Shown here: in pieces, positions 32,702 to 37,721 of the stretch
How positions within the stretch are numbered: position 1 is the stretch's first letter
Layout: the number at the start of each line of letters is the position of its first letter
Assembly: GCF_004122095.1 (NCBI RefSeq)
Contig: NZ_SAWZ01000012.1
Coordinates: 1-64,000 of the forward strand
Length of the DNA: 64,000 nt
Direction of reading: 5' to 3'
Source: Pseudoxanthomonas composti
GTDB taxonomy: Bacteria > Pseudomonadota > Gammaproteobacteria > Xanthomonadales > Xanthomonadaceae
Made by a program: the position numbers and the translations under genes
The notes under the pieces: model-generated
The model's database searches: none
Seen by the model: only the letters and a program-made list of their open reading frames with translations
What the model was told of the DNA's origin: nothing

Positions 32702-34216
32702 ATGAGTCTTGCCCTGGTGCACAGCCGTGCACGGGCCGGCGTGCGCGCACCTGCGGTCCGGGTGGAAGTGCACCTGTCCGGTGGTCTGCCCTGCACGCAG
32801 ATCGTCGGCCTGCCCGAGGCGGCCGTGCGTGAGTCGCGCGACCGCGTGCGTGCGGCGATCCTGTGCGCGCAGTTCGAATTTCCCGCCCGCCGCATCACCG
32901 TCAATCTGGCGCCCGCCGACCTGCCCAAGGAAGGCGGCCGCTTCGACCTGCCCATCGCCCTGGGCATCCTGGCCGCCAGCGGGCAGATCGACCGGCAGGC
33001 GCTGGCCGAGTGGGAATTCATCGGCGAGCTGGGGCTGACCGGCCAGCTGCGCGCGGTCGATGGCGTGTTGCCTGCCGCCCTGGCAGCGGCGGCGGCCCAG
33101 CGACGGCTGATGGTGCCGGCCGAAAGCGGCGCCGAAGCGGCGCTGGCGCGGGAGGGCAACGCCTGCACCGCGCGCACCCTGCTGGAGGTCTGCGCCACGC
33201 TCAACGGCACCCGCGAGCCCGTGCCGGCCCAGCCGCAATCGGTCCAACCCGTGCCGCTGCCGGACATGGCCGATGTGCGCGGGCAGGCGCAGGCGCGCCG
33301 TGCGCTGGAAGTGGCCGCGGCCGGCGGGCACCACCTGCTGTTCGTCGGCAGCCCCGGCTGCGGCAAGACCCTGCTGGCCTCGCGCCTGCCCGGCATCCTG
33401 CCCGAAGCCAGCGAGGACGAAGCGCTGGAGTCGGCGGCCATCGCCTCGGTCAGCGGACAGGGGCTGGACCCGGCGCGCTGGCGACAGCGGCCCTACCGCG
33501 CGCCGCACCACACCGCCAGCGCGGTGTCCCTGGTGGGCGGGGGCGCGCAACCGCGTCCGGGCGAGATCTCGCTGGCCCACAACGGCGTGTTGTTCCTGGA
33601 TGAGCTCACCGAGTGGGATCGCCGCGCGCTGGAAGTGCTGCGCGAGCCGCTGGAGTCCGGCACGGTCACCGTCTCGCGCGCGGCACGCAGCGCGGAGTTT
33701 CCCGCGCGCTTCCAGCTGGTGGCCGCGATGAACCCCTGCCCCTGCGGCTGGGCCGGCGATGCCAACGGACGCTGCCGCTGCAGCCGCGATGCGATCAACC
33801 GCTACCGCAGCCGCATCTCCGGGCCACTGCTGGACCGCATCGACCTGCAGATCGAGGTCCCACGCCTGCCTTCGCAGGCGCTGCGGCCCGACGCGCCCGC
33901 CGGCGAGGACAGCGCAGCCATCCGCGCCCGCGTGGTCCTGGCGCGGCAACGCCAGCTGGCGCGCGCCGGCGCGCTCAATGCGCACCTGAGCCAATCCGAG
34001 ACCTTCGCCAGCTGCCGCCTGGCCCCGGGCGACCAGGAGTTGCTGGAACGCGCGATCGACCGCCTGCAGCTCTCCGCGCGCACCATGCAGCGCATCCTGC
34101 GGGTCTCGCGCACCATCGCCGACCTGGCCGGCGCAGCGCAGATCGACACATCACACCTGACCGAAGCCCTGGGCTATCGCCGCATCGACCAGCGCGGTGA
34201 GGCGCATGCGGCGTAG
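32702..34216 (+). CDS. comM: ComM/YifB family Mg-chelatase-like AAA+ ATPase (branch-migration helicase)
   Basis: A 504-residue protein. An N-terminal Lon-protease-like ChlI domain (LPCTQIVGLPEAAVRESRDR, ITVNLAPADLPKEGGRFDLP) is followed by an AAA+ core with Walker A GSPGCGKTLLASRLPG near residue 215 and Walker B FLDELTEW. A C-terminal Mg-chelatase extension ends with the sensor-2 region ARTMQRILRVSRTIADL. In naturally competent bacteria ComM drives branch migration during integration of transforming DNA. It follows ubiK. Two hairpins follow, and then the AT-rich island begins. Confidence 0.93.
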   Translation: MSLALVHSRARAGVRAPAVRVEVHLSGGLPCTQIVGLPEAAVRESRDRVRAAILCAQFEFPARRITVNLAPADLPKEGGRFDLPIALGILAASGQIDRQALAEWEFIGELGLTGQLRAVDGVLPAALAAAAAQRRLMVPAESGAEAALAREGNACTARTLLEVCATLNGTREPVPAQPQSVQPVPLPDMADVRGQAQARRALEVAAAGGHHLLFVGSPGCGKTLLASRLPGILPEASEDEALESAAIASVSGQGLDPARWRQRPYRAPHHTASAVSLVGGGAQPRPGEISLAHNGVLFLDELTEWDRRALEVLREPLESGTVTVSRAARSAEFPARFQLVAAMNPCPCGWAGDANGRCRCSRDAINRYRSRISGPLLDRIDLQIEVPRLPSQALRPDAPAGEDSAAIRARVVLARQRQLARAGALNAHLSQSETFASCRLAPGDQELLERAIDRLQLSARTMQRILRVSRTIADLAGAAQIDTSHLTEALGYRRIDQRGEAHAA

Positions 34217-34277: not shown

Positions 34278-34341
34278 TTCAGTGCATCGAAGGCACTGAA
34301 GGTAAGGAACGCAGAGGTGTGGCAATCGCCACACCTCTGCG
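34278..34341. terminator. Double hairpin between comM and the convergent amidase
   Basis: The first stem is TTCAGTGC/GCACTGAA (34278-34300). The second is a perfect 14-bp stem, CGCAGAGGTGTGGC / GCCACACCTCTGCG, with a 4-nt loop (34310-34341). No long T-tract follows on either side, but the position between convergent genes suggests a bidirectional transcription end. The rest of 34217-34432 shows no gene. Confidence 0.6.
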
Positions 34342-34432: not shown

Positions 34433-36020
34433 CTACACAACCTTACATGTCACAGTTGATTCCACTGCCGGTGCGAAGACCCCGTCAGCGTCGTAGATCT
34501 TCGAACTCACCGTGTGCGTCGCGCTACTTGGGCCACCGGAACCACAACCGAACGTCCAGTACAGCTTGCCGTCGACGAGCGAAACCGTACGACCCTTTGT
34601 TCCACGGCAGGTATAACCGTCTGCACACTGCACGATTTCGACGTTCACCTTCAATGCCCCCCCGCGGTTCTCCTGTGTACGTGAAGTACACCGGAACTTT
34701 AGTTCCTTTAGGACCGGACGCTGGCCCTACGGATGCCACTGAAAACGGGGCACAGCTTTTCCCCTCCTTGTACATTCGATATCCCTTCTCAACCCCACGC
34801 ATCGCGGCCGCACGAAAGCTTGAGTTGCGAAGGAGAGCTGAATCCTCGCTATTGCTGTGGAAGCCCACCTCGACAAGTGCCGTTGCCATCGCAGCTTCGC
34901 GCACTTCGCCATAGCTATCACCCGATCTAACACCCACGCGAATGGGATAACTCGCGTAATCGGGGAGTTGCGTGATCTGTTCTTTGAGGTAGCAATGGAT
35001 GTTATTGGCTAGCTGGGTGGAAGCTGGATCGCTCAGATTTGTAACTACAGTCGCGCCGCGGGCCGTCGCACCAGCAGCATCCGTATGAAGGGAGATCATT
35101 GTTTCTGCATTGATGTAGTTGGCGTATTCCGGCCTGGAGCGAATGTCATCATCATATTCGCGCAGGTTTGAGCGCTCTGGCTGCTTACGCGAGGGGGAAC
35201 CATTAGGGAACTTGTTCCAGATCGTTGCGCCAAGCTCGGGATAAATTCGCTTTAAGTAATAGCGTGACCCAAGCGCCGCCCAACTCAATCCGCTTGCTGG
35301 ATCTTGCGTGGTATTGGTAATGTCACGGGTATGCTTGACGCTGGTGACCGTTGAGGCGCTGCGGTCAGCAAGGTAACTCGCCAAGCGAGAGGAGTAGCCT
35401 GGCGTTACCGTATCCTCGTAGACATTGGTGGTTCCCGCGTAAGGGGTTGGACGCTGGTACCGCCATGTTTCATCAGCATGATGCAGATACTTCCCGTGCC
35501 CCGGATTAAGCACAACGAGCCCGGCGACAGGGGCCGCGACAGCCTGGTTTTCAAGGGCCGCCGCCCTCTGCTTTTTCAGGTACGCAGGCGGATAGATTTC
35601 TCGAAGCTCCTTACCGCCAATCCTAACTTTGATGTAGTTGAACCTCACAACATTGCCAAGCAACTCGTAGCCCTCGTTCTCAACCTCTCTCACCAGCTCG
35701 CCGAAATCTTCTGTGAACTCACTTGCGCCTCTAGGAAGATAGCTCGCATCTAAGTCAATCCACACCACTCCTGTTTCAGCGTCTGGAGTAACTTTGACTA
35801 GGACCTGTTTGGCTTGCCCTGCAATGCGCTTCTGCCCGTCAACAAAAGCTTGCAACTCAGGCTCAATTTCCTGAGCTACAGCACCACGATTCTTGGCGGT
35901 GAGGTTGGGAAGATCAGGATTAGCGCCTGCTTGGGCGAGGGCTCCAAAACTGAGCACACCCCCCACCAAAAATATTAATGCGGCAACGACAAACGTTGAC
36001 TCTTTCCTTGCGTGCATCAT
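34433..36020 (-). pseudogene. Secreted N-acetylmuramoyl-L-alanine amidase (Amidase_3), frameshifted near the 3' end
   Basis: A signal peptide (TFVVAALIFLVGGVLSFGALAQ) is followed by a ~150-residue N-terminal region and an Amidase_3 zinc domain. Its residues are intact: NPGHG, NVYEDTV, ISLHTDAAG and ALVEVGFHSN. A C-terminal Ig-like module starts at SVGPASGPKGTKVPVYFTYTG. There the frame breaks: as read, the protein diverges after GEPRG and stops at 34524 (498 aa). The module continues in another frame (LKVNVEIVQCADGYTCRG to 34433). One G fewer in the minus-strand G7 run (34663-34657) restores a 528-residue protein. The catalytic domain would survive. The start is ATG 36020, with AAAGGA upstream. 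The gene is visibly AT-richer than its neighbours. Confidence 0.8.
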
Positions 36021-36310: not shown

Positions 36311-37189
36311 TTAGCCTTCGTGCTCCGCCAGGAACTGGCCGATCAAGGCGTTGCAGCGGCGCGGGTGGGTGAAGGTCATGCCGTGCGAGGCGCCGGCGAT
36401 GGTGTGGCGGCGCGCATCGGGCAGCCAGGCCGACAGGGCTGCGGCGTTGTCGCGGTATTGCGCAGGACTGAGCGCGCCGTCCAGCAGCAGCACCGGCAGC
36501 TCCAGCGCGCGCGCATCGGCCTGTCGGAATGGCGGCAGCGCGTCGGCCAGTTGCGGCGCCAGGGTGGCGGCGTTGTCGCGCACCATGTTGCGGAAGGCTT
36601 CGCTGCTGCGCTTCCACGCGCCGGGCTGACTGACCGAATCGACGAAGCACGCCAGTCCGGCGTCCCGCTCGCCAGCGTCCAGCAGCGCCAGCGCCTGGGC
36701 GCGCAGCGCCTCGGCTTCCGCCGGCAGCCCGGCCTCCTGGGGCGCACCCGGGTCCAGCAGGGTCAGGCTGCGCACCCGCTGCGGCTGGGCGATCGCGGCC
36801 TGCCAGGCCACCGCCGCGCCGCGCGAATGGCCAATCAGGTGCGCGCGGTCCAAGCCGCAGGCTTGGATGAAGTCCAGCACCTGCTGCGCGTGCTGGCGCC
36901 AGCCGAAGGCGGGCAGCTGTGTGTCCGGCAGCGGCGGGTGGTAGTGGGCAAGGCTGGGCGCCAGCACTTCATGGCGGTCGGCCAGGCCGCGCAGCTGCGG
37001 CTCCCAGTAACGGAAGTCGCACAGCGCGCCATGCACGCAGACCACGGGCGAACCGCTGCCCGCGCTTGCGTAGGCGATCAACGTGCCATCGCCCAGCCGC
37101 TTCAGCCTGGCCTTGTCCGTCACGTCCGCACCTGTGCTGCCACGCCCGCCATTCCGCATCGAAAGGAACAGGATGCTAAGCAGCGCCAT
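36311..37189 (-). CDS. Alpha/beta hydrolase
   Basis: An alpha/beta hydrolase fold protein of about 292 residues from ATG 37189, or 282 from ATG 37159. The latter begins MRNGGRGSTGADV and would lack the short hydrophobic start MALLSILFLS. The core shows the oxyanion strand VVCVHGALCDFRYW, the nucleophile elbow LIGHSRGAAVAW (Ser), the acid near LLLDGALSP, and the catalytic His in GASHGMTFTHP. The family covers esterases, haloperoxidase-like and lactone hydrolases; the substrate is unknown. It stands alone between the AT-rich island and the repeat-bearing gap before aceA. Confidence 0.82.
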   Translation of the reverse strand: MALLSILFLSMRNGGRGSTGADVTDKARLKRLGDGTLIAYASAGSGSPVVCVHGALCDFRYWEPQLRGLADRHEVLAPSLAHYHPPLPDTQLPAFGWRQHAQQVLDFIQACGLDRAHLIGHSRGAAVAWQAAIAQPQRVRSLTLLDPGAPQEAGLPAEAEALRAQALALLDAGERDAGLACFVDSVSQPGAWKRSSEAFRNMVRDNAATLAPQLADALPPFRQADARALELPVLLLDGALSPAQYRDNAAALSAWLPDARRHTIAGASHGMTFTHPRRCNALIGQFLAEHEG

Positions 37190-37721
37190 CGCGGCGTGCC
37201 AGCGCTGGCGCGTCACGGCTATGGCGGCAATCCCACGCCGTGGAATCGCAGCGAGGAAAGAAAGGGCGGCCAAGCAGCCAGCCCGGTTCACTCTGCAGCC
37301 CGAGGGATGCGGGCGGCGCGGGACCGGTCTGTGGGTGCAGATCGGGATACGCTTTCGTTGACTGTCCTGCACTACGGCCGCGCGGACCCGCGCTTCGGAG
37401 GGGCACCAAGGGGCCACAGACACCTGGCGGCTGCCTTCCTGATCAACGCCTGCTCACACAAGCAGGTCATCCCAGATGCGATGGGCATTCGCCACATCGA
37501 AACTGCTCACCCACTCCCTTCTCCCGCACGCAAGAACGTCTGGCACGCCGCCCTCGCGTGCCTTCAGCATCACGGGATTCGGGCTGTGCTTCGACAGCAG
37601 TGGCCTGGCCAGCCAGGCCACTGCTCCCGGCCATGCGCGGGCGTTTTCTCCCATCCCCGATCAGGCCCCCTCCCCCGCGCGCAGGAGAAGGGATCGCGCA
37701 TCGCCGCTTTCCGCACCAGCC
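37190..37721. other. Intergenic region with a perfect 14-bp hairpin
   Basis: About 530 bp without a supported gene. The main feature is an inverted repeat at 37596-37625, AGCAGTGGCCTGGC / GCCAGGCCACTGCT with a 2-nt loop and no T-tract. A minus-strand open frame (37454-37654) crosses it but has no recognisable family. The hairpin lies past the 3' ends of aceA and so may act as an mRNA end. Confidence 0.5.

Follow-up and report, generated by a model that had tools for sequence, protein, structure and literature searches.

An amidase gene of Pseudoxanthomonas composti changes frame at a run of seven Gs, and this change is best read, with moderate confidence, as a recent one-base frameshift at a G run in a gene that encodes a secreted peptidoglycan amidase and was probably gained by lateral transfer. 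The frame break is real in the sequence as given. The window referred to below is the whole stretch of DNA analysed, which is 64,000 nucleotides long.

The amidase gene and its two frames

The features of the gene, all on the minus strand, are as follows.

34524..36020, minus: amidase ORF as it stands, 498 residues, with ATG at 36020 and the zero-frame stop at 34526-34524
34665..36020, minus: shared frame of 452 residues, ending at 34665, defined by alignments to relatives and the PF01520 match
34657..34663, minus: G7 tract at which the homologous frame changes, defined by the sequence and frame comparison
34433..34663, minus: frame B, which encodes the remaining part of the C-terminal module in 76 codons and ends with a stop at 34435-34433, defined by the open frame and homology
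34524..34664, minus: Arg-rich out-of-frame tail of the 498-residue ORF, 46 residues

A single C directly precedes the G7 tract on the minus strand, after residue 452. A first-pass annotation of this DNA had placed the frame switch exactly at seven Gs (minus strand, 34663-34657) and had predicted a continuous protein of 528 residues without the break; these coordinates hold, and the length agrees with that of the shared frame and frame B together (452 + 76 residues). The shared frame contains a signal-peptide-like start (judged by eye), an N-domain (approximately residues 31-150), a linker, an amidase domain (approximately residues 167-420) and the start of a C-terminal module, the domain borders being drawn by eye from alignments. 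Residues 292-410 match Amidase_3 (PF01520) with an E value of 6.5e-17 and 62.6 bits, as compared with the gathering cut-off of 27, and the zinc amidase domain proposed earlier is thereby recognized upstream of the break. H175, E202, H312 and E384 are invariant in all five aligned sequences, and are taken to be the zinc-ligand and catalytic residues of Amidase_3. The break lies after the amidase domain, approximately 30 residues into the C-terminal module of approximately 100 residues, so that the two possible proteins differ in this module only, as had been suggested. The designation of the module as Ig-like is not established, because the structure predicted for an intact relative from five alignment rows contains only beta strands in the module, at very low confidence (mean pLDDT of 40). 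The AT-rich setting is confirmed: the GC content is 58% and 54% in the region from 34 to 36 kb, as compared with 68-75% in the two neighbouring kilobases. The window has few G7 tracts, two as against 20.8 expected in shuffles.

Four Xanthomonas relatives (L009-L012) share 67-69% identity with the window's protein over the shared 452 residues and stay in a single frame (527, 531, 527 and 531 residues). Orthologues that end naturally at the 34524 stop, which the earlier annotation had considered, are therefore not seen among these four. Relative to these intact homologues the window's gene has a frame break, as a pseudogene would have. When frame B is compared with L009, L010 and L012, the identity is 22-25%, and the cysteines and the DADGV motif are shared at the same place. 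L011 was left out of this alignment because its last part differs, near the contig end; in this X. dyei copy (L011:4950-5034), other sequence stands in for the end of the module, as it would after an insertion. The best single match to frame B among the loci compared is L027, with 53% identity over 73 residues (tblastn, E 5.8e-23), and the differences between them at the first, second and third codon positions are 24, 21 and 47 over 75 codons. The homology of frame B to the C-termini of its relatives, its same place in the alignment and the third-position excess against L027 indicate that this frame was translated, and is to be regarded as coding, until recently. None of the ORFs of L009-L012 (0/4) contains six or more consecutive Gs or Cs at any point, and L027 has no G tract at the position corresponding to the G7 of the window.

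For a check on assembly error, homopolymers of six or more were collected from 1.264 Mb (1.2 Mb of the genome in stretches, and the window), and the coding frame on either side of each was called by a codon model. Among the 192 G/C tracts of this length, 50 have a clear call on the same strand at both sides, 3 lie between different strands and 139 are without a clear call. The frame is kept at 48 of the 50 judged tracts (45 of six bases and 3 of seven) and changes at the other two. These two and a T7 run, which are the three apparent frame shifts at homopolymers elsewhere, were rejected, because all are junctions of adjacent genes (operon). Thus, no frameshift at a G/C tract is found elsewhere in the 1.264 Mb (0/50 judged), a result that bounds the error rate only at approximately 6% and is based on three in-frame tracts as long as seven. 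The codon model gives no clear call at the window's own G7, because the AT-rich stretch does not fit this model. The completeness of the assembly is 100 and its contamination is 0.34.

The locus, the amidase family and the C-terminal module

The gene is flanked by the following features.

32702..34216, plus: comM-like gene, at one edge of the insertion
34310..34341: perfect 14-bp inverted repeat with a 4-nt loop, located where the comM and amidase genes converge; judged by eye, it resembles a terminator
36311..37423, minus: alpha/beta hydrolase gene upstream of the amidase gene (PF00561, E 6.3e-16)

The inverted repeat is not among the matches of a terminator scan, and the GC content of the hydrolase gene is like that of its surroundings. 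In the genus, the amidase gene beyond its N-domain is found in one of 38 genomes, the window's own, and four others match with the N-domain alone. N-domains without the rest are seen at five places in four genomes of the genus (L004, L005, L006, L007 and L008), in open frames of 180-215 residues, and possibly represent either a propeptide- or inhibitor-like partner or remnants. One of the N-domain-only matches, in G032, is followed in another frame by a 19-residue piece like the amidase start (26 bits). Neither a hydrolase nor an amidase gene is found within approximately 1.5 kb behind comM in 29 other loci of the genus. In G010 (L051), the isocitrate lyase gene directly follows comM, and this locus represents the site without the hydrolase-amidase segment. 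At the loci of the Xanthomonas orthologue, radC is nearby in 3/3 and a phage-type integrase in 2/3. The gene looks like cargo of mobile regions and was probably acquired laterally. The 498-residue protein has no match in the plasmid and phage records searched.

The amidase family was surveyed with a profile made from five sequences. Scoring was limited to three candidates in each genome, and the counts are consequently lower bounds. The profile matches at least 53 of the 395 genomes of the bacterial family, in at least 10 of 54 genera. For comM, taken as a core control, matches are found in 391 of the 395 genomes, with two or three matches in many among those listed. Copies with some part of the amidase domain were counted, those with the N-domain or the C-terminal module alone were left out, and a weak, partial match in G402 (E 6.9e-4) was dropped. 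At least 43 copies were counted: 21 run in one frame, 19 have a broken frame or an interruption, and three (G362, G374 and G394) are truncated or cut by a contig end. The 21 one-frame copies carry the N-domain, the amidase domain and the module, and the pattern of the first zinc-ligand motif is unmatched in five of them. They include the copy of G270, which has an altered end at a contig edge, and that of G235, which is counted as intact because a closer look shows one frame where a frame-tolerant alignment had proposed two shifts.

The damage in the 19 broken copies is a shift of frame, a stop within the frame, an insertion or a large deletion. They are those of G000, G079, G139, G181 (second copy), G187, G250, G281, G304, G314, G321 (second copy), G353, G370, G381, G384 (second copy), G401 (two copies), G409, G413 and G419; the reference proteins are often only 35-50% identical, and single calls are uncertain, above all those for G187 and G139. 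The break sites are scattered. In four of the 19, the break coincides with a homopolymer of at least seven bases, namely the G7 of the window, A10 in G413 and G321, and A9 in G353, and the second copy of G401, a remnant, has T7 near one of its six breaks. No run of seven or more is seen near a break in the other 14, which include two insertions (G384 and the other copy of G401) with unaligned break points. The plain reading of this survey is that such amidase genes are gained and lost often.

The catalytic domain is similar to those of the Amidase_3 proteins (CwlV, CwlD and AmiA/B/C), in that it matches PF01520 and the family profile A1 matches amidases of solved structure, such as CwlV (1jwq), with an E value of 8.4e-6. 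The window's protein differs from them by its extra N-domain and C-terminal module. No NCBIfam model scores above its cut-off: the scores are far below it for CwlD (41.2 of 221.55 bits), AmiB (17.5 of 532) and AmiA (11.2 of 400), and AmiC is matched by the Xanthomonas relative only (13.1 of 700). Ami/CwhA of Lysobacter, which is considered here from its description alone (PMC12219114), is likewise a secreted zinc amidase from the same bacterial family for which a C-terminal stretch of 93 residues is at issue. According to that report, CwhA as described is without a 93-residue C-terminal fragment encoded in the genome, and its authors suspect an error. The mature Ami is given as 30 kDa (PMC12219114), a mass that the part of the window's protein between the start of its amidase domain and the last codon of frame B would exceed. 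No earlier report on the window's gene was found among the open-licence papers listed on Lysobacter amidases, lysoamidase, secreted amidases, phase variation in Xanthomonas, slippage and frameshifting.

The C-terminal module, with its conserved cysteines and DADGV motif, also ends serine proteases (L088, L091, L092 and L093) and HExxH proteins (L089 and L090) of related genera. L092 matches trypsin (PF00089) and aligns with L088 at 57% and with L093 at 39%, and L091, which is the match in G232, fits the serine-protease profile with an E value of 5.1e-114. The HExxH motifs of L089 and L090 were recognized by eye, and PF00413 is matched by L090 only at an E value of 0.14. No Pfam family is found for the module in frame B or in the six proteins scanned, and no second copy of the module is found in the window's genome, where the other match has an E value of 0.97. 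The module likely serves secretion or substrate binding, because it is common to secreted enzymes of different chemistry. When the proteases with this module are used as a yardstick, 3 of 12 are broken: in nine, a single frame spans the greater part of the 506-position model, including that of G181 with a stop at the far end of its 494-residue frame, G233 is split in two pieces, and G291 and G076 match only to positions 197 and 195, with a stop. Amidases are not shown to decay faster than proteases, because 12 proteases are too few for comparison with 19 of 43.

An A10 tract in two Xanthomonas copies

An A10 tract in the linker is common to the copies L031 (G413; tract at L031:1456-1465) and L154 (G321; minus strand). 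Both are assigned to Xanthomonas, the genus of L009-L012, because genomes G077, G259, G270 and G339 carry the same contigs as those of L009-L012. The A10 locus is present in 2 of 35 Xanthomonas genomes, the query's own included. At the tract, the N-domain frame continues for two codons and then stops, and the amidase lies in another frame, which is open for 387 and 386 residues in L031 and L154 respectively. The two copies share 76% DNA identity. For the amidase part, dN is 0.18 and dS is 2.4 (saturated), with a ratio of approximately 0.08, and the differences by codon position are 78, 55 and 200; for the N-part, dN/dS is 0.12. Thus, the frame change is conserved and both frames are under selection, as at a programmed frameshift. 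A normal split into two genes at the linker was considered for L154, L031 and L035 but not adopted, because the amidase frames of L154 and L035 have no ATG, GTG or TTG ahead of the first zinc-ligand motif, and the sole such codon in L031 is a TTG directly adjoining this motif on its upstream side; a start at CTG is conceivable.

Recoding at the A run is suggested by the age of the frame change and by the selection that continues to act on both parts, and A10 is, on this comparison of sequences, a candidate site of slippage or frameshifting. Poly-A slippage is a known mechanism in bacteria (PMC1088944). L031 and L154 are similar to the genes described there (dnaX of Thermus and IS elements) in the run of A, the frame change and the nearby stop; the window differs from them in that its tract is G7 and is not conserved. 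The words 'amidase' and 'Xanthomonas' are absent from the main text of a survey of frame transitions (PMC3711429), and the titles and abstract openings of the papers found on programmed frameshifting in Xanthomonas contain nothing on an amidase. The ORF before the A10 copy (L031:2-886) is, by eye, like a P2-type phage tail protein. The A10 copy of L031 may be prophage cargo. That the family uses homopolymers as part switches, with the A10 of the linker deciding whether the amidase is made and the G7 of the window's lineage deciding whether the module is attached, is quite improbable.

Origin of the frame change in the window

Recent decay, which was absent from the options of the first-pass annotation, fits best, because 19 of the 43 family copies counted are broken or interrupted, at scattered sites, and in 14 of these the breaks have no homopolymer of at least seven bases close by. 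That the frameshift is recent and the gene acquired is also consistent with the single frame of L009, L010 and L012 through the module, with the third-position excess and lack of further damage in frame B, with the AT-rich stretch, with the patchy distribution of the gene (1/38 in the genus beyond the N-domain, and none behind comM in 29 loci), with radC (3/3) and the phage-type integrase (2/3) near the Xanthomonas orthologue, and with the absence of frameshifts among the 50 judged G/C tracts. It is weakened by the facts that one consensus base in one genome decides, that no damage is seen in the catalytic domain, and that the module proteases are also broken (3/12), so that this comparison does not single out the amidase as prone to decay. 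Seven consecutive Gs are, moreover, a plausible place for an error or for reversible slippage as well. An assembly or sequencing error in the tract, the real gene being intact like its relatives, would account for an undamaged frame B that was coding until recently and for the four Xanthomonas orthologues that are in frame here, and a single base in a homopolymer is a common type of sequencing error. We consider this explanation rather unlikely, given that 0/50 judged tracts are frameshifted and that the completeness and contamination of the assembly are 100 and 0.34, but the tract check bounds error only at approximately 6%, with three tracts of seven and 139 of 192 unjudged.

Of the earlier interpretation, the zinc-amidase match, the switch at G7, the restriction of the effect to the module and the relatives without an end at 34524 are supported. 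Slipped-strand phase variation, by which the C-terminal module would be turned on and off, is not. It would explain why a homopolymer, otherwise scarce in the window as G7, lies exactly at the break in a secreted protein whose two end products differ at the C-terminus only. A repeat tract kept in relatives with varying length, as in contingency genes, is however not seen in L009-L012 or L027, where the G tract is not conserved, and seven Gs are short for a contingency tract. MutS looks intact (TIGR01070, 1095.6 bits, no stop), so that nothing points to a mutator, and the 14 of 19 broken copies whose breaks have no homopolymer of at least seven bases close by also speak against such switching, which we regard as improbable. 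Programmed recoding at the tract, yielding a minor full-length product beside the short one, is made plausible within the family by L031 and L154, in which an out-of-frame A10 is kept with purifying selection downstream. We give it very little credence for the window, where a conserved frame change with selection on both frames is not found and the four relatives are in one frame. A transcriptome study of E. coli and Buchnera reports that the runs with insertions were of A or T only, and describes G/C runs as not slippage-prone (PMC5574713). As the tract is not conserved, neither recoding nor phase variation, though conceivable, has support in the window. It is also very unlikely that the short form is the working form, with an enzyme that tolerates the 46-residue tail and does not need the module: the catalytic domain is matched and CwhA, as described (PMC12219114), is without its 93-residue C-terminal fragment, but the break lies inside the module and not at its border, so that a partial domain is left.

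According to the favoured reading, recent decay of an acquired gene, the gene would have arrived with a signal peptide, the N-domain, the Amidase_3 catalytic domain and the C-terminal module of approximately 100 residues. A recent and presumably real and heritable change of one base in the length of the G run inside the module would then have left a product that keeps the catalytic domain but has a scrambled and probably unfolded end. Because of this end, the product would be poorly secreted, unstable or untargeted, and the gene would be heading for loss, like many others of the family.

A probable recent frameshift in an accessory gene is ordinary by itself. Nearly half of the secreted-amidase copies found are broken, and this might be as expected of weapons or cargo under changing selection. 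The analysis also draws attention to a module without a Pfam match in secreted enzymes of Xanthomonadaceae (amidases, trypsin-like proteases and HExxH proteins), and to a conserved A10 tract in Xanthomonas that is a candidate for recoding.
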